A DNA stretch of 51,540 nucleotides. Source: an uncultured Verrucomicrobiota bacterium (GTDB taxonomy: Bacteria; Verrucomicrobiota; Verrucomicrobiia; Limisphaerales; CAIQOK01). The notes under the pieces are model-generated. The model was not told where the DNA came from, did not search any database, and was given only the letters and a program-made list of their open reading frames with translations. The stretch lies in the NCBI GenBank assembly GCA_903873415.1, contig CAIQOK010000139.1, positions 1-51,540 of the forward strand, written 5' to 3'. This document shows, piece by piece, positions 30,536 through 48,609 of this stretch; within the stretch, counting starts at the first letter, position 1; each line of letters opens with the position of its first letter. The position numbers and the translations under genes were made by a program.

Positions 30536-30551
30536 AACTCAGTTGCCTCTT

Positions 30552-33500
30552 ATGACCCAGTCCGAACGGCATCAGATCCTCGTCGAGTGGAACCGGACGG
30601 AGCGGGAGTATCCGCGGGACAAGTGCGTGCATCAGTTGTTCGAGGAGCAGGCGGAGAGGACCCCTGAGGCGGTGGCTGTGGAGTTTGCGGAGCGGTCGCT
30701 GACCTACCGCGAACTTGACGTGCAGGCCGGGCGGCTTGCCGCGCATCTGCGCTCGCTGGGGGTGGGCCCGGACGCGCTGGTGGGCCTCTGCGTGGAGCGC
30801 TCGCTGGAAATGACGGTGGCGCTGCTGGGCATCCTCAAGGCGGGCGGCGCCTATCTGCCATTGGATCCGGACCTTCCGCCCGAGCGCTTGGCCTTCATGC
30901 TTCAGGACTCCAACCTGCCTGTTCTGATCACTCAGCGCCGGCTGGCTGGACGCGTCGGCATCTCAGCGGCGCACAGGGTGTGGATTGATGAATGCGGGTG
31001 GCAGACGGAGCCGGAGACCCCGCCGCAAACCGGCCCATCCACTTCGCTGGCTTACGTGCTCTACACTTCCGGTTCGACCGGCCAGCCCAAGGGCGTTCAG
31101 ATTTCCCATCAGGCTCTGGTCAACTGCATCTGGCATTTCATCGAAACGTTGAAAATCCGCCCGCACGACGGCTGGATGGCTGTCACGACGCTTTCATTTG
31201 ATATCGCCGCCCTGGAAATTTGGCTCCCGCTCCTGGCCGGGGCGCGGGTGATTGTCGCCACCCGCGCGATGGCTCAGGACGGACAAATGCTCAACCGCGC
31301 ATTGATGGCTACCGGCGCCACAATCCTGCAGGCGACACCGGCCACCTGGCAGGCCTTGCTCCATTCCGGTTGGCAGGGAAACCCCAAACTCCGGATCCTC
31401 TGCGGCGGCGAAGCTCTGCCGCAGGCGCTCGCCGACCGCCTCGCCATGCTGGGTTCCTGCGCTTGGAACCTTTATGGGCCAACCGAAACAACAATCTATT
31501 CCTCCGACAATCAATTGCTCCCCCATAGTCCGGTCACGATCGGCCGTCCGCTCGCCAACACGCGGGTTTATATCCTCGACGCGGATGGCCGCCCCGTCCC
31601 CATCGGTGTGGCTGGAAATCTTGTGATCGGCGGCGACGGTCTGGCGCGTGGATATCTCAACCGGCCCGAACTAACCGCCGAACGATTCATTTCCGATCCT
31701 TTCTCCGCCACGCCTGGCGCCCGGCTTTACCGGACTGGAGACATTGCCCGCTGGCGGGCCGACGGCAACATCGAATACCTCGGACGCGCCGATCATCAGG
31801 TGAAAATCCGCGGCTACCGCATTGAGCTGGGGGAGATTGAGTCTGTTTTGGGCGGGCATCCTGGCGTCTCCGCCTGCACTGTGCTGGCCCGGGATCAAGG
31901 TGGCGGGGACAAGGTCCTGGCCGCCTTCGTGGTGGTCCGGAAGCCCGGCGGGCTGGATGCGGAAACGCTGAGGCAATGGCTCGGGGCTAAGCTGCCGGAC
32001 TACATGGTGCCGGCGCGGTTTTTTTCGGTGCCTGCGCTGCCGCTCACGCCCAATGGCAAGGTGGACCGCAAGGCCCTGGAAAAAACCGACGCAGTGGAGC
32101 TGGTCTCGGGGACGGACCACCTCGCGCCGCGCAGCCAAATTGAACGGGACTTGGTGGAGATATGGAAGGGGGTGTTGGGCCGCGAGAAGGTGGGCGTGCG
32201 GGACAACTTTTTCCATCTGGGCGGTCACTCGCTCCTGGCGGTGATGGTGTGCGCGCAGCTGAGGCAAAGGCTCAACCTGGATGTTTCCGTGCGTGCGCTC
32301 TTCGATCATCCCACGGTCGAGGGATTGGCGGGGCACTTGAAAGCGGCGGTGGTGGATTCCTCCGCTGCCAGCCCTGTTGAAAAGGCGGACCAGCGCCAGC
32401 CTCTGCCCCTGTCCTTTGCCCAGCAGGGAATGTGGTTCCTGCAGCAGACTCTGCCGGACCCGGCCACCTACAACCAGCCCGCGGCCATCCACCTGTCCGG
32501 CCCGGTGGATCAGGACCGGATCCGTCGGTGTCTGGATGTGATCGTCGGGCGCCATGAGATATTGCGCACGGCCTTGGTGCGGCAGGATGAAAGCCTGGTG
32601 CAGCAGGTTTTCGCCGCGAACGAATGCGCGCTGCCCTGGATGGAAGTGGACCTGCGGCTCTTGGCGCCGGACGGACAAACGTCCGCGCTGGAGGAGCGAT
32701 TGCTGGCCGAGGCGCGAAGACCCTTTGATCTGGCTCTGGCACCGTTGTGGCGGGTGGCGTGGATCAGGATTTCCGGCGATGAACAGGTGCTGGCCTTTAC
32801 CTTTCATCACAGCATCGTAGATGAATGGTCGGTGCGTTTGTTCCTCCGCGAGTTGGAGATTCTTTACGCGGTGGACGCGCAGGCCGGGCTGGCCGCTCTG
32901 CCCCCTTTGCCTGTGCAATACGCCGATCACGCCCTGTGGCAGAGGCGGCGCTTGACTGGGGAGCGGCTTGCAACACACCTGGGCTACTGGCGCGAGCAAC
33001 TCCGGGATTTGCCGCCCCCCTTGGAACTGCCCTCCTGTTTTCCGCGCCCGGCCCGGCCCGGGGGGCGCGGGGCGACGCGTCGTTTCCGGCTCGAGGGCCC
33101 GGTCGCGGCCCGGATGCGCCAGCTGGCCAGCGAGGAAGGGGCGACCCTCTTCACCGTGATGCTTGCGGTCTTTCAGGTCTGGCTGCATCGGCACACCGGT
33201 GCGGGCGATGTTGTGGTCGGCACGCCGATGACCGGCCGGGACCGGCCGGAGGTGCAGTCGTTGCTGGGGCTTTTCCTGAACATGCTGCCCATCCGCACCC
33301 GGGTGGATCCGGGCCGGAATTTCCGCGAAGTTCTGCGGCAGGTGCGGGCCACTTTGCTGGATGCCCTGAGCCACGCGGAACTGCCCTTTGAGCAGATGGT
33401 TGGGCTTGCGGTTAGGGACCGCTCCCCGCGATGGCAACCCTTGTATCAGGTTATGTTTGTGTTGTTGGAGGGGGAATCTTTTCTGCCGCAATTGGGGCTG

Positions 33501-36398
33501 GCCCGGGGTCGGCATATTCCGGCCCGCACCGGGACGAGCAAGAGCGATCTGGTCTTGAGCATCCAGGCCGGGGAAGAGGGATGGGAATGCGAGTTTGAAT
33601 ACGACACGGACCTGTTCAGCGGGGAGGGTGTGGCCGCGATGTCGAGGCACCTGACGGAGCTGCTGCGCTCGATCGGGCAGCATCCTGAGCAGGCTGTCGG
33701 CGGACTGAACCTGCTGCCGGAGTCGGACCGGCATCAGATCCTTGTCGAGTGGAACCGGACGGAGCGGGAGTATCCGCGGGACAAGTGCGTGCATCAGTTG
33801 TTTGAGGAGCAGGTGGAGAGGACCCCCGAGGCGGTGGCTGTGGAGTTTGCGGAGCGGTCGCTGACCTACCGCGAACTTGACGCGCAGGCCGGGCGGCTTG
33901 CCGCGCACCTGCGCTCGCTGGGGGTGGGCCCGGACGCGCTGGTGGGCCTCTGCGTGGAGCGCTCGCTGGAAATGACGGTGGCGCTGCTGGGCATCCTCAA
34001 GGCGGGCGGCGCCTATTGTTCCTTGGATGAGACCCTGCCGGACGAACGGCTGGGCTGGATACTGGCCGATGCGCGCCCGGTTCTGCTGCTCGCGCGGGGC
34101 CGGTTGCTGCCGCGTCTGGCCAATCTGGCCGGTTCAATCCCGGTGAACCCGCCCGTCGTGGCCGGCATTGAGGATCTATTGTCGGCACCGTCAGGCGGCC
34201 CCTGTTTTGGTGATCCGCGGCCGCGGCCGCTCAGTCCGGTTTACGTGAGCTACACGTCCGGATCGACCGGCCACCCCAAGGGCGTGGTGGTGCCGCATCG
34301 CGGAGTCGTGCGCTTGGTCAAGGGGGTTGATTATGCTTCGTTCAGCGCGGCGGAGACCTTTCTGCACCTGTCTCCGCTGTCGTTTGATGCGTCCACTTTT
34401 GAGATCTGGGGCCCGCTGCTCAACGGGGGACGACTGGTGCTGCTGCCGCCGGGGCAGCCCTCGCTGGTGGAGATTGGTACCGTCATCGGCCGGCGTGGAG
34501 TCACCACCTTGTGGCTTACGGCGGGCCTGTTTCATCTCATGGTGGATGAGCGCTTGGACGATCTGAAACCGTTGCGCCAGTTGTTGGCTGGAGGGGATGT
34601 GCTCTCGCCCGGGCATGTCAGCCGGGCGCGCCGGGGGCTGCCGGGCTGCCGGATCATCAACGGCTACGGTCCGACGGAGAACACCACCTTCACCTGTTGC
34701 CACACCGTGACGGAGGAAAACGCATCGGGTGCGGGCGTGCCGGTGGGGCGTCCGGTTTCAAACACGCAAGTGTATGTGCTGGACCCGTTTCTACGCCCGG
34801 TTCCAGCGGGTGTGCCCGGCGAGCTGTACGCCGGAGGCGACGGTCTGGCGCTCGGCTATTTGAACCGGCCGGAGCTGACGGCGGAGAAATTCATTCCCAG
34901 TCCCTTTGCGGCCGGCGCCCGGCTTTATCGGACTGGGGACATCGCCCGCTGGCGGGCCGACGGCAACATCGAATACCTCGGACGCGCCGATCATCAGGTG
35001 AAAATCCGCGGCTACCGCATTGAGCTGGGGGAGATTGAGTCTGTTCTGGGGGGGTATCCCGGCATTTCCGCCTGTGGTGTGCTGGCCCGGGATCAAGGCG
35101 GCGGGGACAAGGTCCTGACCGCCTTCGTGGTGGTCCGGAAGCCCGGCGGGCTGGATGCGGAAACGCTGCGGGAATGGCTGGGCGCAAAGCTGCCGGACTA
35201 CATGGTGCCGGCGCGGTTCTTTTCGGTGGCGGCGCTGCCGCTCACGCCCAATGGCAAGGTGGACCGCAAGGCCCTGGAAAAAACCGACGCAGTGGAGCTG
35301 GTCTCGGGGACGGACTACCTCGCGCCGCGCAGCCAAATTGAACGGGACTTGGTGGAGATATGGAAGGGGGTGTTGGGCCGCGAGAAGGTGGGCGTGCGGG
35401 ACAATTTTTTTCATCTGGGCGGCCACTCGCTGACGGCGGTGCGGTTGACCGGGCAAGTTGAGAAGGTATTCGGATGCAAGTTGCCCATAGCGTCTTTGTT
35501 CCAGTCGCCCACTATTGAAGCGCTGGCGCGGCGGCTGGGGGAGAAGGACTGGAAGTCGCCCTGGAGTTCGCTGGTTGCTCTCCAACCGCTGGGTTCAAAA
35601 CCGCCCTTGTTTTTCGTTCATGGTGTCCGCGGTGAAGTGTATCGCTATTTGGACTTGATCAAACATTTGCCGGCGGACCAGCCCTGTTACGGTATCCAAG
35701 CAGTCGGGTTGGACGATAAATCCGCTCGCCACAGGACGGTTGAAGAAATGGCGGCCCACTACGTTGGGGAAATTCTTCAATTGCAACCGGAGGGTGCTTA
35801 TTATCTGGCCGGCTATTCAATGGGAGGGTTGGTGGCTTATGAGATGGCGCGGCAACTTCAGCGTCAAGGCCGGCGCGTTTTGTTTTTGGGCCTCTTGGAC
35901 AGTGGACCCGCAGGCAAGGTTCCGGTTTTTTTCTACGGATTACAGATGGCTTTTTATCTTCCCCGCCGCTGCTGGTTTCATCTGCGAAGATGGTTCGGAC
36001 TGCCCGTGGCGGAGCGTTTTGATTACTTGCGCCGGCGCTGGCGCTCACTTCTAATTCTGATCACCCGCAACTGGTCAAATCCTCCGGCAGTGGCGGCTGC
36101 GCCGGAGAAAAAACTGCAAGGTCCTGAGGTTCCGGCTGGTTTTATCGATTACTACCACATGGTGGCCTCAGCCTATCAGCTCCAGCCCTATCCCGGAGCC
36201 GTCGATGTTTTTGTTAGTGACCAATACGCTCCCGGCTGGAAAACGTACTGGAAACATCTGGCCCGCGGTGGAGCCGCCTTCCATCGGATTCCGGGCCAGC
36301 ATTTTGAGATATTCAACCCTGACAATGTGGTTGTGTTTGCTCAATTATTCAGGTCCTCGCTTCATCGGGCTCAAGCGAAGGAACAGGATTCCGTGTAA
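30552..36398 (+). CDS. Two-module non-ribosomal peptide synthetase, A-PCP-C-A-PCP-TE
   Basis: 1948 residues. Module 1: adenylation (LYTSGSTGQPKG about residue 170, YGPTETT about 306) and carrier protein (LGGHSL about 555, Ser is the phosphopantetheine site), with no condensation domain in front. Module 2: condensation (FHHSIVDEWS about 752; HHxxxD kept, last Gly replaced by Glu), adenylation (YTSGSTGHPKG about 1233), carrier (LGGHSL about 1622). A type I thioesterase ends the protein (GYSMGG near 1753; His in GQHFEIF near 1914). By eye against GrsA the pocket codes are DILQLGLIYK (module 1, glycine-like) and DAFWLGGTFK (module 2, valine-like), so a Gly-Val dipeptide or derivative is the predicted product. 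No phosphopantetheinyl transferase or MbtH gene is in the window. It lies in one transcription unit with tagD and the TagF-like gene. Confidence 0.95.
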   Translation: MTQSERHQILVEWNRTEREYPRDKCVHQLFEEQAERTPEAVAVEFAERSLTYRELDVQAGRLAAHLRSLGVGPDALVGLCVERSLEMTVALLGILKAGGAYLPLDPDLPPERLAFMLQDSNLPVLITQRRLAGRVGISAAHRVWIDECGWQTEPETPPQTGPSTSLAYVLYTSGSTGQPKGVQISHQALVNCIWHFIETLKIRPHDGWMAVTTLSFDIAALEIWLPLLAGARVIVATRAMAQDGQMLNRALMATGATILQATPATWQALLHSGWQGNPKLRILCGGEALPQALADRLAMLGSCAWNLYGPTETTIYSSDNQLLPHSPVTIGRPLANTRVYILDADGRPVPIGVAGNLVIGGDGLARGYLNRPELTAERFISDPFSATPGARLYRTGDIARWRADGNIEYLGRADHQVKIRGYRIELGEIESVLGGHPGVSACTVLARDQGGGDKVLAAFVVVRKPGGLDAETLRQWLGAKLPDYMVPARFFSVPALPLTPNGKVDRKALEKTDAVELVSGTDHLAPRSQIERDLVEIWKGVLGREKVGVRDNFFHLGGHSLLAVMVCAQLRQRLNLDVSVRALFDHPTVEGLAGHLKAAVVDSSAASPVEKADQRQPLPLSFAQQGMWFLQQTLPDPATYNQPAAIHLSGPVDQDRIRRCLDVIVGRHEILRTALVRQDESLVQQVFAANECALPWMEVDLRLLAPDGQTSALEERLLAEARRPFDLALAPLWRVAWIRISGDEQVLAFTFHHSIVDEWSVRLFLRELEILYAVDAQAGLAALPPLPVQYADHALWQRRRLTGERLATHLGYWREQLRDLPPPLELPSCFPRPARPGGRGATRRFRLEGPVAARMRQLASEEGATLFTVMLAVFQVWLHRHTGAGDVVVGTPMTGRDRPEVQSLLGLFLNMLPIRTRVDPGRNFREVLRQVRATLLDALSHAELPFEQMVGLAVRDRSPRWQPLYQVMFVLLEGESFLPQLGLARGRHIPARTGTSKSDLVLSIQAGEEGWECEFEYDTDLFSGEGVAAMSRHLTELLRSIGQHPEQAVGGLNLLPESDRHQILVEWNRTEREYPRDKCVHQLFEEQVERTPEAVAVEFAERSLTYRELDAQAGRLAAHLRSLGVGPDALVGLCVERSLEMTVALLGILKAGGAYCSLDETLPDERLGWILADARPVLLLARGRLLPRLANLAGSIPVNPPVVAGIEDLLSAPSGGPCFGDPRPRPLSPVYVSYTSGSTGHPKGVVVPHRGVVRLVKGVDYASFSAAETFLHLSPLSFDASTFEIWGPLLNGGRLVLLPPGQPSLVEIGTVIGRRGVTTLWLTAGLFHLMVDERLDDLKPLRQLLAGGDVLSPGHVSRARRGLPGCRIINGYGPTENTTFTCCHTVTEENASGAGVPVGRPVSNTQVYVLDPFLRPVPAGVPGELYAGGDGLALGYLNRPELTAEKFIPSPFAAGARLYRTGDIARWRADGNIEYLGRADHQVKIRGYRIELGEIESVLGGYPGISACGVLARDQGGGDKVLTAFVVVRKPGGLDAETLREWLGAKLPDYMVPARFFSVAALPLTPNGKVDRKALEKTDAVELVSGTDYLAPRSQIERDLVEIWKGVLGREKVGVRDNFFHLGGHSLTAVRLTGQVEKVFGCKLPIASLFQSPTIEALARRLGEKDWKSPWSSLVALQPLGSKPPLFFVHGVRGEVYRYLDLIKHLPADQPCYGIQAVGLDDKSARHRTVEEMAAHYVGEILQLQPEGAYYLAGYSMGGLVAYEMARQLQRQGRRVLFLGLLDSGPAGKVPVFFYGLQMAFYLPRRCWFHLRRWFGLPVAERFDYLRRRWRSLLILITRNWSNPPAVAAAPEKKLQGPEVPAGFIDYYHMVASAYQLQPYPGAVDVFVSDQYAPGWKTYWKHLARGGAAFHRIPGQHFEIFNPDNVVVFAQLFRSSLHRAQAKEQDSV
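30567..30854 (+). repeat. NRPS module repeat, N-terminal A-domain block, copy 1
   Basis: Aligns without gaps to 33729-34016; about 6 differences in 288 bases by eye. It encodes the A-domain start from RHQILVEWN to the AGGAY motif. Similarity stops abruptly after that motif. Confidence 0.9.
31716..32233 (+). repeat. NRPS module repeat, A-domain C-terminal part plus carrier, copy 1
   Basis: Aligns without gaps to 34914-35431; about 26 differences in 518 bases by eye. It covers LYRTGDIARW through the carrier-protein LGGHSL motif. Confidence 0.9.
33729..34016 (+). repeat. NRPS module repeat, N-terminal A-domain block, copy 2
   Basis: Partner of 30567-30854, offset 3162 bases. Confidence 0.9.
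34914..35431 (+). repeat. NRPS module repeat, A-domain C-terminal part plus carrier, copy 2
   Basis: Partner of 31716-32233, offset 3198 bases. The 36-base difference from the first block's offset lies in the unlike pocket cores between the blocks. Confidence 0.9.
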
Positions 36399-40012: not shown

Positions 40013-40987
40013 ATGCATATTGTTTTTGTCACCGGCGCGGCGGGCTTTATCGGCAGCACTTTGGTTGACCGCCTTTTACTCGACGGCAAGCAGGTTGTTG
40101 GATGGGATAATTTTTCCACCGGCCAGCGACGGTTTCTTGAGAGTGCCCTGAGGCACCCCGGCTTCAAGCTCGTGGAAGGTGACAATCTGGATTCAACCGC
40201 GCTGACAAAAGCCATGGCCGGGTGTGACACGGTGTTTCACCTCGCCGCCAATGCCGACGTCCGCTTCGGGCTGGAACATCCGGCCAAGGATCTCCAGCAA
40301 AACACCATCGCCACCTTCAACGTGCTTGAAGCCATGCGCGCCAACGGCATCCGGCGCATCGCTTTCAGCTCCACCGGGAGCGTCTATGGCGAGGCGGAAA
40401 AAATCCCGACGCCCGAAGATGCGCCGTTTCCGGTGCAGACCTCGCTCTATGCGGCCTCCAAAATCTCCGGCGAGGGGATGATTTCCTCCTATTGTGAAGG
40501 GTTCAAGTTTGAGGGTTATATTTTCCGTTTTGTCTCCATCCTCGGCGAGCGCTACACGCACGGCCATGTCTTTGATTTTTACCGTCAGCTTCTCGAACAT
40601 CCCGGGCAGTTGAAGGTGCTGGGCGACGGTTCCCAGCGGAAGAGCTATCTCTATGTTCAGGATTGTCTCAGCGCCATGCTCCATGTGATGAATCAGGGCA
40701 CGGCCAAAAAGGCCCGGCACGGCGTGGAAATCTACAACCTCGGCGCCGACGAATATGTGCAGGTGAACAACTCGATCGGATTCATCTGCGGTGCGCTGGG
40801 CCTGGAACCCCGGCTCGAATACACCGGCGGCCAGCGGGGATGGGTCGGCGACAACCCGTTCATTTTTCTGCAGACCGCGAAGATTCGCGCCACCGGATGG
40901 CAGCCGACGCTCACGATTGAACAGGGGATTGGCCGCACCCTGCAATGGTTGCAGCAGAACCAGTGGGTCTACGAAACCCGGCACTGA
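40013..40987 (+). CDS. NAD-dependent epimerase/dehydratase (extended SDR)
   Basis: 324 residues. Sugar-nucleotide enzyme of the UDP-glucose 4-epimerase / dTDP-glucose 4,6-dehydratase family. Seen: VTGAAGFIGSTLVDRLL (NAD-binding GxxGxxG, residues 6-17), FHLAANADVRFGLEHP, FSSTGSVYGE (active-site Ser/Thr), YAASKISGE (catalytic Tyr and Lys), and RFVSILGERYTHGHVFDF. The SSTGSVYGE plus YAASK pattern is epimerase-like. First of four same-strand genes (to 44280), which suggests synthesis of a modified sugar for a surface polymer. Divergent from argB. Confidence 0.9.
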   Translation: MHIVFVTGAAGFIGSTLVDRLLLDGKQVVGWDNFSTGQRRFLESALRHPGFKLVEGDNLDSTALTKAMAGCDTVFHLAANADVRFGLEHPAKDLQQNTIATFNVLEAMRANGIRRIAFSSTGSVYGEAEKIPTPEDAPFPVQTSLYAASKISGEGMISSYCEGFKFEGYIFRFVSILGERYTHGHVFDFYRQLLEHPGQLKVLGDGSQRKSYLYVQDCLSAMLHVMNQGTAKKARHGVEIYNLGADEYVQVNNSIGFICGALGLEPRLEYTGGQRGWVGDNPFIFLQTAKIRATGWQPTLTIEQGIGRTLQWLQQNQWVYETRH

Positions 40988-41075: not shown

Positions 41076-42344
41076 ATGAACATTTGCGTCCTTGGTCTCT
41101 GGCATTTGGGCAGCGTCACCGCGGCGTGCAGCGCCAGATGGTTTAACGTCGTCGGTCTGGATTTCGAGCCGGGAACGGTTGGTAACCTTGGGGCCGGCCG
41201 TGCCCCGCTGCTGGAACCCGGGCTCAACGAACTCCTGGCAGCCGGACTGGCGTCGGGAAAACTTTCTTTCACGACTGATCCGCAAGCCGCCTGCTCCCAA
41301 GCCGATGTTCTGTGGCTGACCTGCGACACCCCGGTCAATGAATCCGATGAATCCGATGTGGGGAGCGTGACGGCCAAGCTACGACGGGCGCTGCCGCATC
41401 TCCCGGCCGGCGCGCTGGTTCTCATTTCCGCCCAGTTGCCGGTGGGGACATGCGCCGCGCTGGAGGCGGAGTTTCCCGGGTTCCATTTCGCCTGCTACCC
41501 GGAGAACCTCCGGCTGGGCAAGGCCCTGGACTCTTTTGAAAAGGCCGAACGGATTGTCGTCGGCCTCCGTTCCGATGCCAAACGGGCCCTGCTGGAGCAG
41601 CTTCTCTCCCCTTTCACGCCGCAGATTGTGTTTATGCGCACCGAGTCGGCCGAGATGGTGAAGCATGCGCTCAACTCGTTTCTGGCACTTTCAATAACCT
41701 TCATCAACGAAGTGGCCCGGCTTTGCGAGCATACCGGCGCCGATGCCAAGGAAGTAGCGTTCGGGCTCAAGACGGAGGCGCGTATCGGGTCCAAGGCTTA
41801 TCTGGGGCCTGGCGGACCATTCGCCGGCGGCACGCTGGCCCGCGACGTGGTCACCCTCACCCAATTGGCCCGAGTCACGGGCGAGACCATTTCTGTCATC
41901 CCGGCCATCAAACAGAGCAACGATCTGCATCGGGGCTGGGTTTTCCGCCGTTTGGAGGCGAGGCTGGGTGGTTTGCGGGGCCGGAAAATCGCCGTGCTCG
42001 GGCTGACATACACCACGAACACGGACACGCTGCGGCGTAGTGCCGCAGTGGAACTCTGTTTCAAGCTGCTGCAAGCCGGCGCGCAGGTGACCGCCTTCGA
42101 TCCGGCAGTCAGGACACTTCCGCCCGAATTGCATGCCGTCTCGCTCTGTCCTGATTTGGCGGCGGCGGTTCGGGGCGTTGAGGCCGTGGCAGTCTGCACC
42201 GAGTGGCCCCAGTTCCGGCAGGCTGACTGGACGGCCCTCGCGGCAACCCTGCGCGGGCGGGTTTTCGTGGACGCGAACTGTTTTTTGGAAAGGGAATTAA
42301 AAGGAATCTCCGGCGTGGAGCATTTGTCTGTCGGCCGCGCATGA
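41076..42344 (+). CDS. Nucleotide-sugar dehydrogenase homologue with Thr at the catalytic Cys site
   Basis: 422 residues. UDP-glucose/GDP-mannose dehydrogenase family: the start MNICVLGLWHLGSVTAACSA (NAD site), LLEPGLNELLAAG, the central SAEMVKHALNSFLALSITFINEVA, and the C-terminal LGLTYTTNTDTLRRSAAVEL. Normal members have a catalytic Cys in GGSC(F/L)PKD; here the aligned segment is FAGGTLARDV, placing Thr at that position, so the usual two-step oxidation to a uronic acid through a thioester seems excluded. Similar AGGTLARD members exist to my recollection; their reaction is not known to me. The start is at ATG 41076; the frame upstream overlaps the epimerase gene. Confidence 0.85.
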   Translation: MNICVLGLWHLGSVTAACSARWFNVVGLDFEPGTVGNLGAGRAPLLEPGLNELLAAGLASGKLSFTTDPQAACSQADVLWLTCDTPVNESDESDVGSVTAKLRRALPHLPAGALVLISAQLPVGTCAALEAEFPGFHFACYPENLRLGKALDSFEKAERIVVGLRSDAKRALLEQLLSPFTPQIVFMRTESAEMVKHALNSFLALSITFINEVARLCEHTGADAKEVAFGLKTEARIGSKAYLGPGGPFAGGTLARDVVTLTQLARVTGETISVIPAIKQSNDLHRGWVFRRLEARLGGLRGRKIAVLGLTYTTNTDTLRRSAAVELCFKLLQAGAQVTAFDPAVRTLPPELHAVSLCPDLAAAVRGVEAVAVCTEWPQFRQADWTALAATLRGRVFVDANCFLERELKGISGVEHLSVGRA

Positions 42345-42425: not shown

Positions 42426-43286
42426 ATGAAGCTGGAAAACACCAACGCCCTGATCACCGGCGGCAGCCAAGGGCTCGGCAAGGCCATCGCAACCCAGTTT
42501 CTGGGGGAAGGTGCCAACGTTGTTCTTTGCGCCCGCAGCGAGGCGGAACTCTTTGCCACCCGTTCCGGACTGGCGTCGCAATTTCCCGACCGTAAAATCC
42601 TGGCGCGGACCTGCGACGTGGCCAATGAAGCCCAGGTGAACGAGCTTGCCGCCTTCGCCCTGAGCGAGTTGGGCTCGATTCAGGCGCTCGTTCTCAATGC
42701 CGGTGTTTACGGGCCCATGGGGCCGACGGAAAGCGTCGCACTCGACGAGTGGCGCCGCGCCATGGACATCAATCTGTTCGGGGTGCTGTTGCCCTGCCGT
42801 GCGCTGATTCCGCATTTCAAGAGCGCCGGACGCGGCAAGATTGTAGTTCTCAGCGGCGGCGGCGCAACCAATCCCCTCCCCAACATCAGCGCCTACGCTG
42901 CCTCGAAGGCCGCCGTGGTTCGCCTGATGGAGACGCTGGCCGAGGAGTTGCGCGGCTTCAGGGTGGATGTGAACGCGATTGCCCCTGGTGCTTTGGCCAC
43001 ACGGCTGGTGGATGAAGTGTTGGCCGCCGGACCGGGTAAGGTGGGCGCCGCCTTTTTCGAGAAGAACAAGAGTTGGAAGGAGAAGGGGGCCGTGCCGTTG
43101 GAACTCGGCGCGGGACTGGCGGTTTACCTCGCCAGCAGCGAAAGCGACGGCATTACCGGCAAGCTTCTCAGCGCCCAGTGGGATCCCTGGAAGGATTTAC
43201 AGCAACACCGCGAGGAGCTGGCCAGCTCCGATATTTACTGCCTGCGCCGCATCGTTCCGGAAGATCGCGGCAAGAAATGGAATTAA
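42426..43286 (+). CDS. Short-chain dehydrogenase/reductase
   Basis: 286 residues. Classical SDR: ALITGGSQGLGKAIA (NAD(P) site, residues 8-22), LNAGVYGP (NAG motif), catalytic Ser in VVLSGGGATN, YAASK (Tyr and Lys). The C-terminal tail is longer than usual and ends SSDIYCLRRIVPEDRG. The following Gfo/Idh/MocA gene starts 1 base after its stop, so the two are surely coupled. Probable role: ketone/alcohol step on a sugar or sugar nucleotide. Start at ATG 42426 rather than the GTG two codons earlier. Confidence 0.9.
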   Translation: MKLENTNALITGGSQGLGKAIATQFLGEGANVVLCARSEAELFATRSGLASQFPDRKILARTCDVANEAQVNELAAFALSELGSIQALVLNAGVYGPMGPTESVALDEWRRAMDINLFGVLLPCRALIPHFKSAGRGKIVVLSGGGATNPLPNISAYAASKAAVVRLMETLAEELRGFRVDVNAIAPGALATRLVDEVLAAGPGKVGAAFFEKNKSWKEKGAVPLELGAGLAVYLASSESDGITGKLLSAQWDPWKDLQQHREELASSDIYCLRRIVPEDRGKKWN

Positions 43287-43287
43287 T

Positions 43288-44280
43288 ATGAACCCACGTG
43301 TGGCCCTCGTCGGATGCGGTTTGATTGGTCAAAAGCGGCTCAACCTCCTGCCCCCAGGCAGTGTCACTGTCGCCTGCGACACCCAGCCCGAGCGCGCCCG
43401 GAAAATCGCCGCGCAAAGCCCCGGCTGCAGCGTCACAGGTTCCTTTCAGGAGGCGGTCGCTTCCTCCGAGGTGGATGTGGTGATGATTGCCACGCTCAAT
43501 TCCGCGCTGGCACCGGTGGCCCTGGCGGCGGTGAAACACGGCAAACACGTTCTCGTCGAGAAGCCGGCCGCCATAAGTGTTGCCGAACTCGAAGAGTTGG
43601 AGGCGGCGGCCCGGTTGACCGGCGCATTGGTCCGCGTCGGTTATAACCACCGCTATCACCCGGCCTGCTTGAAGGCATTGGAACTCTTTCATGGCGGGGT
43701 GCTGGGCCCGATGATGTTTTTGCGCGGCCGCTACGGACAGGGGGGGCGACTCGGATACGAGAAGGAATGGCGCGCGGATCCTAAACTTTCCGGCGGTGGC
43801 GAGTTGATCGATCAGGGGGTGCATCTGATTGATCTGGCGGGGATTTTTCTGGGGGAGTTCACCAGGGTGGAAGGCCATGCGACGACCTATTTTTGGGATA
43901 TGCCCGTGGACGACAACGCATTCCTGAGCCTGCGCAACGCTGCCGGTCACACGGCCTGGCTGCAGGTCAGTTGCAGCGAGTGGAAAAACATGTTCAGCCT
44001 GGAAATCTACGGACGCGACGCAAAACTGCACTGGGAAGGCTTGGGCGGGAGCTATGGCATCGAAAAGCTGACCTGCTACAGGATGCTCCCGCAAATGGGG
44101 CCGCCGGAAACGACCATCTGGGAATTCCCGCGCGGGGATGAATCATGGAAGTTGGAGATGGCTGAGTTTTTTGAGGACATCCGGCTCAAACGAACCCCGG
44201 TCCCGGGATTGCGCGAGGCCAAGGCAGCGCTGCAGGTGGTTGAGAAAATCTATGACCAAGGAGCCACCCCGGCGACCTGA
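43288..44280 (+). CDS. Gfo/Idh/MocA-family oxidoreductase
   Basis: 330 residues. NAD(P)-dependent sugar or inositol dehydrogenase: GCGLIGQKRLNLLP (residues 9-22), VLVEKPAAISVAELEEL (EKP motif, Lys for catalysis), and GGGELIDQGVHLIDLAGIFLG with the HxxD catalytic pattern. No signal peptide, so cytoplasmic, unlike the Tat-exported relative at 47194-48609. Last of four genes in the sugar-nucleotide cluster; a terminator follows at 44336. Confidence 0.92.
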   Translation: MNPRVALVGCGLIGQKRLNLLPPGSVTVACDTQPERARKIAAQSPGCSVTGSFQEAVASSEVDVVMIATLNSALAPVALAAVKHGKHVLVEKPAAISVAELEELEAAARLTGALVRVGYNHRYHPACLKALELFHGGVLGPMMFLRGRYGQGGRLGYEKEWRADPKLSGGGELIDQGVHLIDLAGIFLGEFTRVEGHATTYFWDMPVDDNAFLSLRNAAGHTAWLQVSCSEWKNMFSLEIYGRDAKLHWEGLGGSYGIEKLTCYRMLPQMGPPETTIWEFPRGDESWKLEMAEFFEDIRLKRTPVPGLREAKAALQVVEKIYDQGATPAT

Positions 44281-47193: not shown

Positions 47194-48609
47194 TCAGCCC
47201 TTCACCAGACCGGCCCGCTTCAGGACGGCTTGAACATCGTATTCCGGCTTCCGTGCTTTCCGGCCGAGCAGGGCATTGGCTGCAGCATCTCCATCGAAGC
47301 GCTCCAGCGCGGCATTCCAAACCAGCTTGCGCTTGAGTTTCATCCCAAGCCATGCGGCGTAGCAGGCCTGCAGGCTGCGAGCCGATTGCTGGATGGGGGC
47401 GATGGGCTGGCGGTTTGCAGCGATACTTTCAAGCCAGTTCAAATGATGCTGTTTGCTCGGCATCCAGCGCGTTGCATTGCCGCCTAGCGGCGAGAGAATC
47501 TTTTCGTCGCTGGCGCGCAGGGCGCGATTGGCATCGGCCGGGGCATTGGGATCGCTGGCGGTGACTTTTGCTGAGCCGCGGGTGCAAAACACCCATCCCT
47601 CGCTGCCTTCAAAGCGCAGGCCGGTCTCAAACTCGTTGTCGAGAATGACACGGACGTTGTTGGGATACTGCATCTCGACGTGATAATCGCGGTGCACAGT
47701 CCAGGCATCGTCCTTCATGAATCCGGCACGGGCTTCAATGGCAGAGGGGCCACCCAACTCCTGCCCCATAGCCCATTGGGCGATATCGATGTGATGTGCG
47801 CCCCAGTTGGTGATCATTCCAAGACCGAAATCCTCGGTGGTGATCCATCCGGGACGACCGCTCAGGCTGTCCTGGGGATGCACGCGAAGCTCCATGTAAG
47901 GCTGCTGGGGAGCGGGACCCAGCCAGCGCTCGAAATCAAAGGTGGCTGGCACCGGTTGGGGTGCGGGGCGGTGGCCGCTGGGATTGTCCAGACCGACGCC
48001 GATTTTGATGGTATGAAGCGTTCCAATCCGACCGTTGCGCACGGCTTCGCTGGCGGCGCGAAAACTGCCCCACGGATTTTCCGAGCGCTGCTGCGAGCCG
48101 GTCTGAAGAATGATTCCTTTGGCTTCGACTGCGGTGCGCAGGGCGATAGCCCCAGCCACGTCATAGGTAACGGGCTTCTGCACGTAAATGTGCTTTCCCG
48201 CCAACGCCGCCTCCACCGCCAGCAGCGCATGCCAGTGGTCGGGAACGGTGATGACGACGGCATCAACATCCTTTCGCGCCAGCACCTCGCGATAGTCATG
48301 GTAGGTCTGCACATCGACACCCGACTCCCCCTGCTTCTGGTAATGTTCCACGGCAAGTTTCCTGCCCGCCGTCAGCCGGTTGGAATCGAGATCGCATACT
48401 GCCACAAGTCGACCCAGCGGGTGAGCCATGACATCCGACATGTCGCCCCGGCCCATGCGGCCGCAACCGATTTGGGCCACCTGGATGCGTTTGCCGGGAG
48501 TGGAGGCGCCAAACAATGAGGTCGCAGACATCAGATTCGGCAAGACCGCCAGACCGGCGCTGCCGCGGGTGACGGTTTTGAGAAAGCTCCGACGATTTTG
48601 GGGTTTCAT
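47194..48609 (-). CDS. Tat-exported Gfo/Idh/MocA-family oxidoreductase
   Basis: 471 residues. Twin-arginine signal NRRSFLKTVTRGSAGLAVLP, then the Rossmann start IQVAQIGCGRMGRGDM. EKP is replaced by VQKPVTYD, with the Lys kept. The C-terminal domain contains GMITNWGAHHIDIAQWAMG (family GxxxDxGxHxxD type). Such exported, NAD(P)-binding members are numerous in Verrucomicrobia, Planctomycetes and Bacteroidetes; some act on 3-keto-glycosides or glycans. It follows the DUF1080 gene by 27 bases on the same strand, a frequent partnership. Confidence 0.92.
   Translation of the reverse strand: MKPQNRRSFLKTVTRGSAGLAVLPNLMSATSLFGASTPGKRIQVAQIGCGRMGRGDMSDVMAHPLGRLVAVCDLDSNRLTAGRKLAVEHYQKQGESGVDVQTYHDYREVLARKDVDAVVITVPDHWHALLAVEAALAGKHIYVQKPVTYDVAGAIALRTAVEAKGIILQTGSQQRSENPWGSFRAASEAVRNGRIGTLHTIKIGVGLDNPSGHRPAPQPVPATFDFERWLGPAPQQPYMELRVHPQDSLSGRPGWITTEDFGLGMITNWGAHHIDIAQWAMGQELGGPSAIEARAGFMKDDAWTVHRDYHVEMQYPNNVRVILDNEFETGLRFEGSEGWVFCTRGSAKVTASDPNAPADANRALRASDEKILSPLGGNATRWMPSKQHHLNWLESIAANRQPIAPIQQSARSLQACYAAWLGMKLKRKLVWNAALERFDGDAAANALLGRKARKPEYDVQAVLKRAGLVKG

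Follow-up and report, generated by a model that had tools for sequence, protein, structure and literature searches.

Threonine in place of the catalytic cysteine in a conserved group of nucleotide-sugar dehydrogenase homologues encoded within a recurrent nine-gene sugar operon

Introduction

The active site of nucleotide-sugar dehydrogenases (NSDHs) is highly conserved. Eighteen residues were described as invariant among 229 NDP-sugar dehydrogenases, Cys260, Gly9, and Thr118 among them, and Tyr10 was found in 98% (PMC4794789; Streptococcus pyogenes numbering). According to that account, the first step has Asp264 as its base, the second oxidation proceeds by covalent catalysis through Cys260, Tyr10 catalyzes thioester hydrolysis, and Thr118 holds the catalytic water; the water of Thr118 and Asp264 serves the first step, too. 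For the human enzyme, Thr131 and Asp280 are described as handling the water and Cys276 as carrying out the thiohemiacetal chemistry (PMC3184952).

Two described routes to long-chain sugar nucleotides are relevant here. By one of them, Streptomyces produces the octose of lincomycin, a rare sugar of eight carbons. The lincosamide clusters, as listed in Table 2 of PMC4351081, encode the C8 phosphatase LmbK, the dehydrogenase LmbL, the epimerase LmbM, the isomerase LmbN, the oxidoreductase LmbZ, the kinase LmbP, the guanylyltransferase LmbO, the aminotransferase LmbS, and the transaldolase LmbR. A 2025 review assigns the conversion of GDP-octose to GDP-lincosamide jointly to LmbM, LmbL, CcbZ, and CcbS (PMC12945683). 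The Campylobacter GDP-heptose route comprises four enzymes and starts from sedoheptulose-7-phosphate, with no transaldolase in the route as described or anywhere mentioned in that account (PMC10680097).

Here, we describe an NSDH homologue that lacks the catalytic cysteine and is encoded in an operon of nine recurrent genes. We know of no NSDH homologue in the GDP-heptose pathway. A search for the nine-gene operon in the open-licence PMC literature, subscription papers being outside its scope, returned papers on lincosamides and unrelated papers.

Results

The window, i.e., the whole stretch of 51,540 nucleotides that was analyzed, contains on its plus strand an open reading frame (ORF; positions 41076 to 42344) for an NSDH homologue of 422 amino acids (aa). 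The protein scored 270.8 bits against the NCBIfam nucleotide sugar dehydrogenase model TIGR03026, above the cutoff of 189.8, and contains all three Pfam domains (PF03721, PF00984, and PF03720), each over its cutoff. Alignments made with phmmer against solved structures and with MAFFT placed Thr253 (codon ACG, 41832 to 41834) at the catalytic Cys of UDP-glucose dehydrogenases (UGDHs), four residues before the catalytic Asp, which is retained as Asp257; both lie in the segment FAGGTLARDV (aa 249 to 258; 41820 to 41849, plus strand). Two further sites are altered on the same strand. GLWHLG (aa 7 to 12; 41094 to 41111) stands for the NAD-site motif GxGYVG, with the second Gly changed to Trp and Tyr10 to His, and Ser118-Ala119-Gln120 (41427 to 41435) stands for Lys-Ser-Thr, which puts Gln at the position of Thr118 of S. 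pyogenes UGDH.

The same pattern recurs throughout the relatives of this gene. The fetched loci contain 146 NSDH places. After removal of identical sequences and of those with a stop, an X, or fewer than 300 aa, 122 distinct sequences remained, and these carry Thr (n = 95), Asn (n = 2), or Cys (n = 25) at the catalytic position. Another alignment, some rows of which came from duplicate records, gave Thr in 95 of 97 rows, Asn in the other two, and Cys in all 25 ordinary NSDHs aligned with them. Residues are numbered below as in S. pyogenes, the positions having been assigned from motifs rather than from an alignment with the S. pyogenes protein. Every Thr-type sequence has Trp for Gly9, His for Tyr10, and Gln (Gln120 of the window protein) for Thr118; the 25 Cys-type sequences have Gly at position 9 and Thr at position 118 in all cases and Tyr at position 10 in 24. 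Also uniform in all 95 Thr-type sequences, the window copy included, is Thr for Cys260, and Leu for Glu145 and Arg for Lys263 are equally constant, with Gly257 changed to Ala in 91 and Ser in 3 and kept in 1. Retained in 95 of 95 are Thr83, Glu141, Glu201, Lys204, Asn208, Asn219, Gly258, Asp264, and Asn287. The diphosphate-binding Lys (UGDH Lys320; aa 313 of the window protein, 42012 to 42014) is more variable, with Thr in 50 Thr-type sequences, including that of the window, and Lys in 45. A group-marker position is Leu, like that of the UDP-glucose dehydrogenases, where GDP-mannose dehydrogenases have His.

The absence of the catalytic cysteine is real, conserved, and functionally informative. 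Among the residues by which a four-electron NDP-sugar dehydrogenase is recognized, Cys260, Gly9, Thr118, and Tyr10 are missing from all 95 Thr-type sequences, and Glu141, Lys204, Asn208, and Asp264 are present in all 95. Since the replaced positions belong to the second half-reaction and the retained ones to the first hydride transfer, the second half-reaction appears to have been dismantled and the first preserved. The Gln at the Thr118 position may have a role of its own, because the water that Thr118 and Asp264 hold takes part in the first step as well. Degeneration of the gene was rejected as an explanation, since the replacements are themselves invariant. A compensating cysteine was also considered and rejected: Cys126, Cys140, and Cys374 are more common in the Thr-type group (68, 65, and 60 of 95, respectively), but none is invariant, although Cys140 is near the active-site Glu143 in the sequence. 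No other cysteine is invariant among the 95 sequences, either, the best kept, Cys18 and Cys217, occurring also in Cys-type enzymes.

An AlphaFold model of the window protein (mean pLDDT 95.3, pTM 0.90, 37 aligned sequences) takes the UGDH fold, with Thr253 at the start of helix 253 to 268. Its best solved match by Foldseek and VIA-align was 3gg2 (Z 46.3, rmsd 1.7 over 411 residues), with further matches to 4a7p (Z 45.5) and human UGDH (Z 44). Searches of the PDB gave no Lmb protein among the matches listed. With the UDP-glucose 6-dehydrogenase family (TIGR03026; 3gg2, 4a7p, and BceC 2y0e) the protein shares the three domains, the fold, and Lys204, Asn208, Asp264, and Glu141, but identity is only ∼31 to 33%, the GxGxxG motif is altered, and the catalytic Cys, Tyr10, and Thr118 are absent; the C6-carboxylate chemistry of that family is not to be expected of it. 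A preliminary description of this DNA had placed Thr at the catalytic Cys position of FAGGTLARDV, which the alignments and the 95 Thr-type relatives confirm. It had also regarded both the fold and the NAD site as intact. The predicted fold agrees with this, whereas the NAD site does not, given GLWHLG for GxGYVG with Trp9 and His10 in 95 of 95.

A scan of a species-genome collection yielded 299 relatives; the 80 best were taken further, and 4 more came from viral-catalogue contigs. Named carriers include members of the Verrucomicrobiota, Chloroflexota, Acidobacteriota, Myxococcota, Nitrospirota, Bdellovibrionota, Pseudomonadota, and SAR324, as well as Lentisphaerae records, and the copies on Rhizobium and Lawsonia plasmids are 43 to 50% identical. 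Within the same order, where some NSDH-type match was found in 97 of 97 genomes, the close type was present in 9 (own genome counted), namely the genome of the window, seven with full-length copies at 57 to 75% identity, and one with a partial copy. In a quick maximum-likelihood tree of 64 NSDH rows, two of them long-branched and six of odd composition, the Thr-type rows with GLWHLG formed one side of a branch with an SH-aLRT value of 97, and all non-Cys rows grouped together (SH-aLRT 95), so that a single loss of the cysteine is sufficient to account for them. The four viral-catalogue (IMG/VR) contigs, L128, L129, L130, and L131, are candidate viruses on which the Thr-type gene occurs with operon genes: L128 carries the genes for epimerase, Thr-type NSDH, SDR, Gfo, GHMP, and NTase plus TAL and SIS, and L131 carries NTase, HAD, TAL, SIS, and epimerase genes together with GHMP and the Thr-type NSDH.

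The Asn-type sequences form a sister clade (L046:5974-7236, L167:14021-15583, and L047:5995-7296) with GLSHLG and GGNLERD at the corresponding positions and are found in genomes G031 and G081. The G031 copy stands with SIS, HAD, and TAL genes and with a gene for a protein having PfkB and cytidylyltransferase-like domains. This fusion beside the SIS-HAD-TAL set suggests that the sister clade serves a related sugar by another route of nucleotide activation.

In the window, the Thr-type gene is preceded by a gene for an NAD-dependent epimerase (EPIM; 40013 to 40987, plus strand, 324 aa), which is LmbM-like by gene type, has STGSVYG and YAASK motifs, and scored 172.9 bits against Pfam Epimerase. 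It is followed, on the same strand, by genes for an SDR-family oxidoreductase (42426 to 43286, ATG at 42426, 286 aa; 173.8 bits, Pfam adh_short) and a Gfo/Idh/MocA oxidoreductase (43288 to 44280, 330 aa; 75.2 bits, Pfam GFO_IDH_MocA), the latter LmbZ-like by gene type. A survey of gene neighborhoods at 93 loci showed these four to be part of a recurrent nine-gene operon with the usual order EPIM, NSDH, SDR, Gfo, GHMP kinase, nucleotidyltransferase (NTase), SIS isomerase, HAD phosphatase, and transaldolase (TAL), seen, e.g., in Rhizobium plasmids, a betaproteobacterium, Chloroflexota, and Nitrospirota. On plasmid 3 of Lawsonia intracellularis (L036), an obligate intracellular pathogen of pigs, the operon is reordered and adjoins glycosyltransferase genes.

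The partners were counted at the 93 loci as follows: EPIM, 84; SDR, 73; Gfo/Idh/MocA, 74; GHMP kinase, 61; NTase, 54; transaldolase, 53; SIS, 48; and HAD, 46. Many loci end at contig ends. Because some ORFs are overextended, these numbers are lower bounds. Flanks of 1.2 kb or more upstream and 8 kb or more downstream were available at 54 loci. Of these, 35 (HAD) to 51 (EPIM) had any single partner, and 27 had all eight partners of the NSDH homologue, namely the seven of lincosamide type and the SDR. The epimerase has the STGSVYG form, the dehydratase motif DExYG occurs in 0 of 88 members of its cluster, and all 75 members of the Gfo/Idh/MocA cluster have an EKP motif. The window copy of the latter has EKP as well but fell outside the family clustering, probably because its ORF is overextended. 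Recurrent flanking genes encode GT2 glycosyltransferases, a GT9 glycosyltransferase, and a methyltransferase, with which a surface glycan as the destination of the sugar would fit.

The window holds the first four operon genes, and the remainder lie on two other contigs of the same genome, so that all pathway genes are present, spread over three contigs. Contig C128 carries GHMP (88%) and NTase (79% identity to the operon at locus L067) with SIS, HAD, and TAL, and contig C170 carries a second SIS-HAD-TAL set.

Compared by gene type and not by sequence, the operon shares eight types with the lincosamide octose pathway (lmb/ccb) as tabulated: transaldolase, isomerase, kinase, phosphatase, nucleotidyltransferase, epimerase, dehydrogenase, and oxidoreductase. 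For this comparison, LmbL is taken as homologous to UGDH and LmbZ as belonging to the Gfo/Idh/MocA proteins, and the other Lmb proteins are likewise assigned to their presumed fold types. The operon differs in having the SDR, which is absent from the lmb table, and in having no aminotransferase of the LmbS type among its nine recurrent genes, flanking ORFs having been family-searched in part. It differs, too, in that its neighbors are genes for glycosyltransferases and methyltransferases rather than antibiotic genes. No lmb-like cluster was recognized on the plasmids searched, including a Streptomyces plasmid whose transaldolase (47%) adjoins a hexitol phosphatase and a lactone oxidase; the transaldolase family is indeed found in unrelated settings, too.

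Of 387 genomes of the phylum, 34 had the transaldolase and 62 the kinase. The Thr-type NSDH was found in 14, all of which had both of the others. Naive hypergeometric P values (9e-17 with transaldolase, 2e-12 with kinase) count each genome as an independent case and, given shared ancestry, overstate the significance. Conversely, 20 of the 34 transaldolase genomes had no Thr-type match. Stretches from 15 of these 20 were inspected, and two contained a divergent Thr-type NSDH below the cutoff, with GLWHQG and GGTLARD (L159:4940-6250 and L160:6292-7578). The other 13 stretches, one of them a 5-kb contig, had no NSDH match, and activation genes were present with or without EPIM, SDR, and Gfo. The Thr-type NSDH is thus optional to the pathway. 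SDR identity was 50 to 77% at 13 loci with the Thr-type NSDH versus 40 to 47% at 7 loci without it (including L160, which has the divergent form), whereas EPIM and Gfo were about equally similar in both cases. This split ties the SDR to the NSDH step.

Discussion

The co-occurrence of transaldolase, isomerase, kinase, phosphatase, and nucleotidyltransferase genes in the operon points to a sugar of seven or eight carbons, so that production of an unusual long-chain sugar may be widespread among unrelated bacteria. The transaldolase would make a ketose phosphate and the SIS protein would isomerize it; GHMP kinase and HAD phosphatase would then shift the phosphate to C1, and the nucleotidyltransferase would activate the sugar as an NDP-sugar, whose stereochemistry or oxidation state EPIM, NSDH, SDR, and Gfo/Idh/MocA may alter. 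UGDHs oxidize C6 of their substrate, and when the sugar has seven or eight carbons, this position bears a side-chain secondary alcohol. The product of its oxidation would be a ketone, and since a ketone is not convertible to a carboxylate, the catalytic Cys, the thioester-hydrolyzing Tyr, and the water-holding Thr would become dispensable.

We propose with moderate confidence that the Thr-type NSDH is a former UDP-glucose-dehydrogenase-type enzyme which performs a single NAD-dependent two-electron oxidation of the C6 secondary alcohol of an NDP-octose to a ketone. As in UGDH, the first hydride transfer would fall to Asp257, Lys196, and Asn200, and the resulting 6-ketone would probably be taken over by the SDR, e.g., for reduction to the other epimer. 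What we observed is an invariant residue pattern, a fold, an operon, and a co-occurrence of genes; the ketone, its position at C6, the eight-carbon chain, the nucleotide, and the order of steps are our reading of them. Formation of a ketone alone, we infer, would explain both why Cys and Tyr10 were lost and why Asp, Lys, and Asn were retained. Several observations weigh against the proposal: the SDR and the lack of a recurrent aminotransferase, the optional nature of the NSDH, the transaldolase family in other settings, Thr for the diphosphate-binding Lys in 50 of 95 sequences, and the divided indications on the nucleotide from the NTase scores and the group-marker Leu. The preliminary description had raised the possibilities that the enzyme stops at the aldehyde or performs another redox step on a sugar nucleotide, and that it builds one unusual sugar together with the epimerase, SDR, and Gfo/Idh/MocA enzymes. 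The last idea gains support from the presence of the same four genes together across phyla, along with five sugar activation genes. Another redox step is likewise supported, but a stop at a hexose 6-aldehyde is not the preferred reading, the partners being C7/C8 sugar genes.

The strongest competing explanation, though an unlikely one, is that NAD+ is reduced and reoxidized within one site, so that the enzyme would be a 6,8-dehydratase or 6-epimerase rather than a net dehydrogenase. The concerted alteration of several NAD- and water-site residues would agree with this, as would the joint action of LmbM, LmbL, CcbZ, and CcbS on GDP-octose. One enzyme of that set is said to reduce and then reoxidize NAD+ within a single active site, and the abstract of a 2020 PNAS paper reportedly names 6-epimerization, 6,8-dehydration, 4-epimerization, and 6-transamination as steps of the lincosamide octose route. 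The linked SDR, however, also fits an external reductase.

Rather unlikely, too, is that the operon makes a variant of NDP-D-glycero-D-manno-heptose and that the enzyme oxidizes the secondary alcohol at C6 of a heptose. The pathway to GDP-D-glycero-D-manno-heptose uses the same four activation reactions and homologous protein families, SIS, GHMP, HAD, and NTase being distant homologues of GmhA, HddA, GmhB, and HddC, and the best solved relative of the operon kinase is a heptose kinase (3k85). A transaldolase can also make sedoheptulose-7-phosphate. The four operon proteins of L067 nevertheless all stayed below the cutoffs of the NCBIfam heptose equivalogs (SIS, 49.3 versus 209.45; GHMP, 166.1 versus 600; HAD, 129.9 versus 178; and NTase, 97 versus 300), and TAL exceeded its transaldolase cutoff (308.8 versus 281.95). 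The NTase scored best with MurU (124.9 bits) and next with HddC (97 bits), reaching neither cutoff. The Campylobacter route, as described, moreover does without a transaldolase.

A halt at the aldehyde stage (C6) with a common hexose nucleotide, the leading idea of the preliminary description, is improbable: residues of the first oxidation are retained and those of the second gone, in agreement with it, but the conserved partners belong to a C7/C8 sugar pathway and not to UDP-glucose or GDP-mannose, and a free dialdose nucleotide is a reactive species. Quite improbable is oxidation of an aldehyde hydrate to the acid without a covalent intermediate. The human C276A mutant could oxidize added aldehyde, yet it failed to complete the reaction from UDP-glucose (PMC3184952), and both Tyr10 and Thr118 are gone in 95 of 95 Thr-type sequences. 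A structural or regulatory pseudoenzyme, suggested by the loss of several canonical residues, is very improbable when the catalytic Lys, Asn, Asp, and Glu and the replacements alike are constant in 95 of 95.

With the C6 ketone of an NDP-octose as the preferred product, a wider picture can be put forward tentatively. Some 10 phyla and some viral-catalogue contigs may share a modular nine-gene NDP-octose pathway for surface polysaccharides, of which the lincomycin sugar might be an offshoot, and the Thr-type NSDHs may be a distinct enzyme class acting on long-chain sugar nucleotides by oxidation or internal rearrangement of the side-chain alcohol at C6. Should the octose reading prove true, C8 sugars would be a common component of bacterial glycans rather than a peculiarity of a single antibiotic, and it would become testable where the lincosamide sugar came from. 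Thr-type genes are labelled UDP-glucose or nucleotide sugar dehydrogenase in many genomes, whereby a uronic acid is ascribed to them that is probably beyond the enzyme; the signature of Trp9-His10, Gln120, and Thr253 would tell the two chemistries apart by sequence alone.

Elsewhere in the window, a large putative nonribosomal peptide synthetase (NRPS) ORF of 1951 aa (30543 to 36398) seems on visual inspection to comprise two adenylation modules and to end in a thioesterase-like region, with arginine-biosynthesis-like genes nearby. A second Gfo/Idh/MocA protein is encoded at 47194 to 48609 (minus strand), and its ORF begins with an apparent twin-arginine-type leader (MKPQNRRSFLK), likewise judged by eye.
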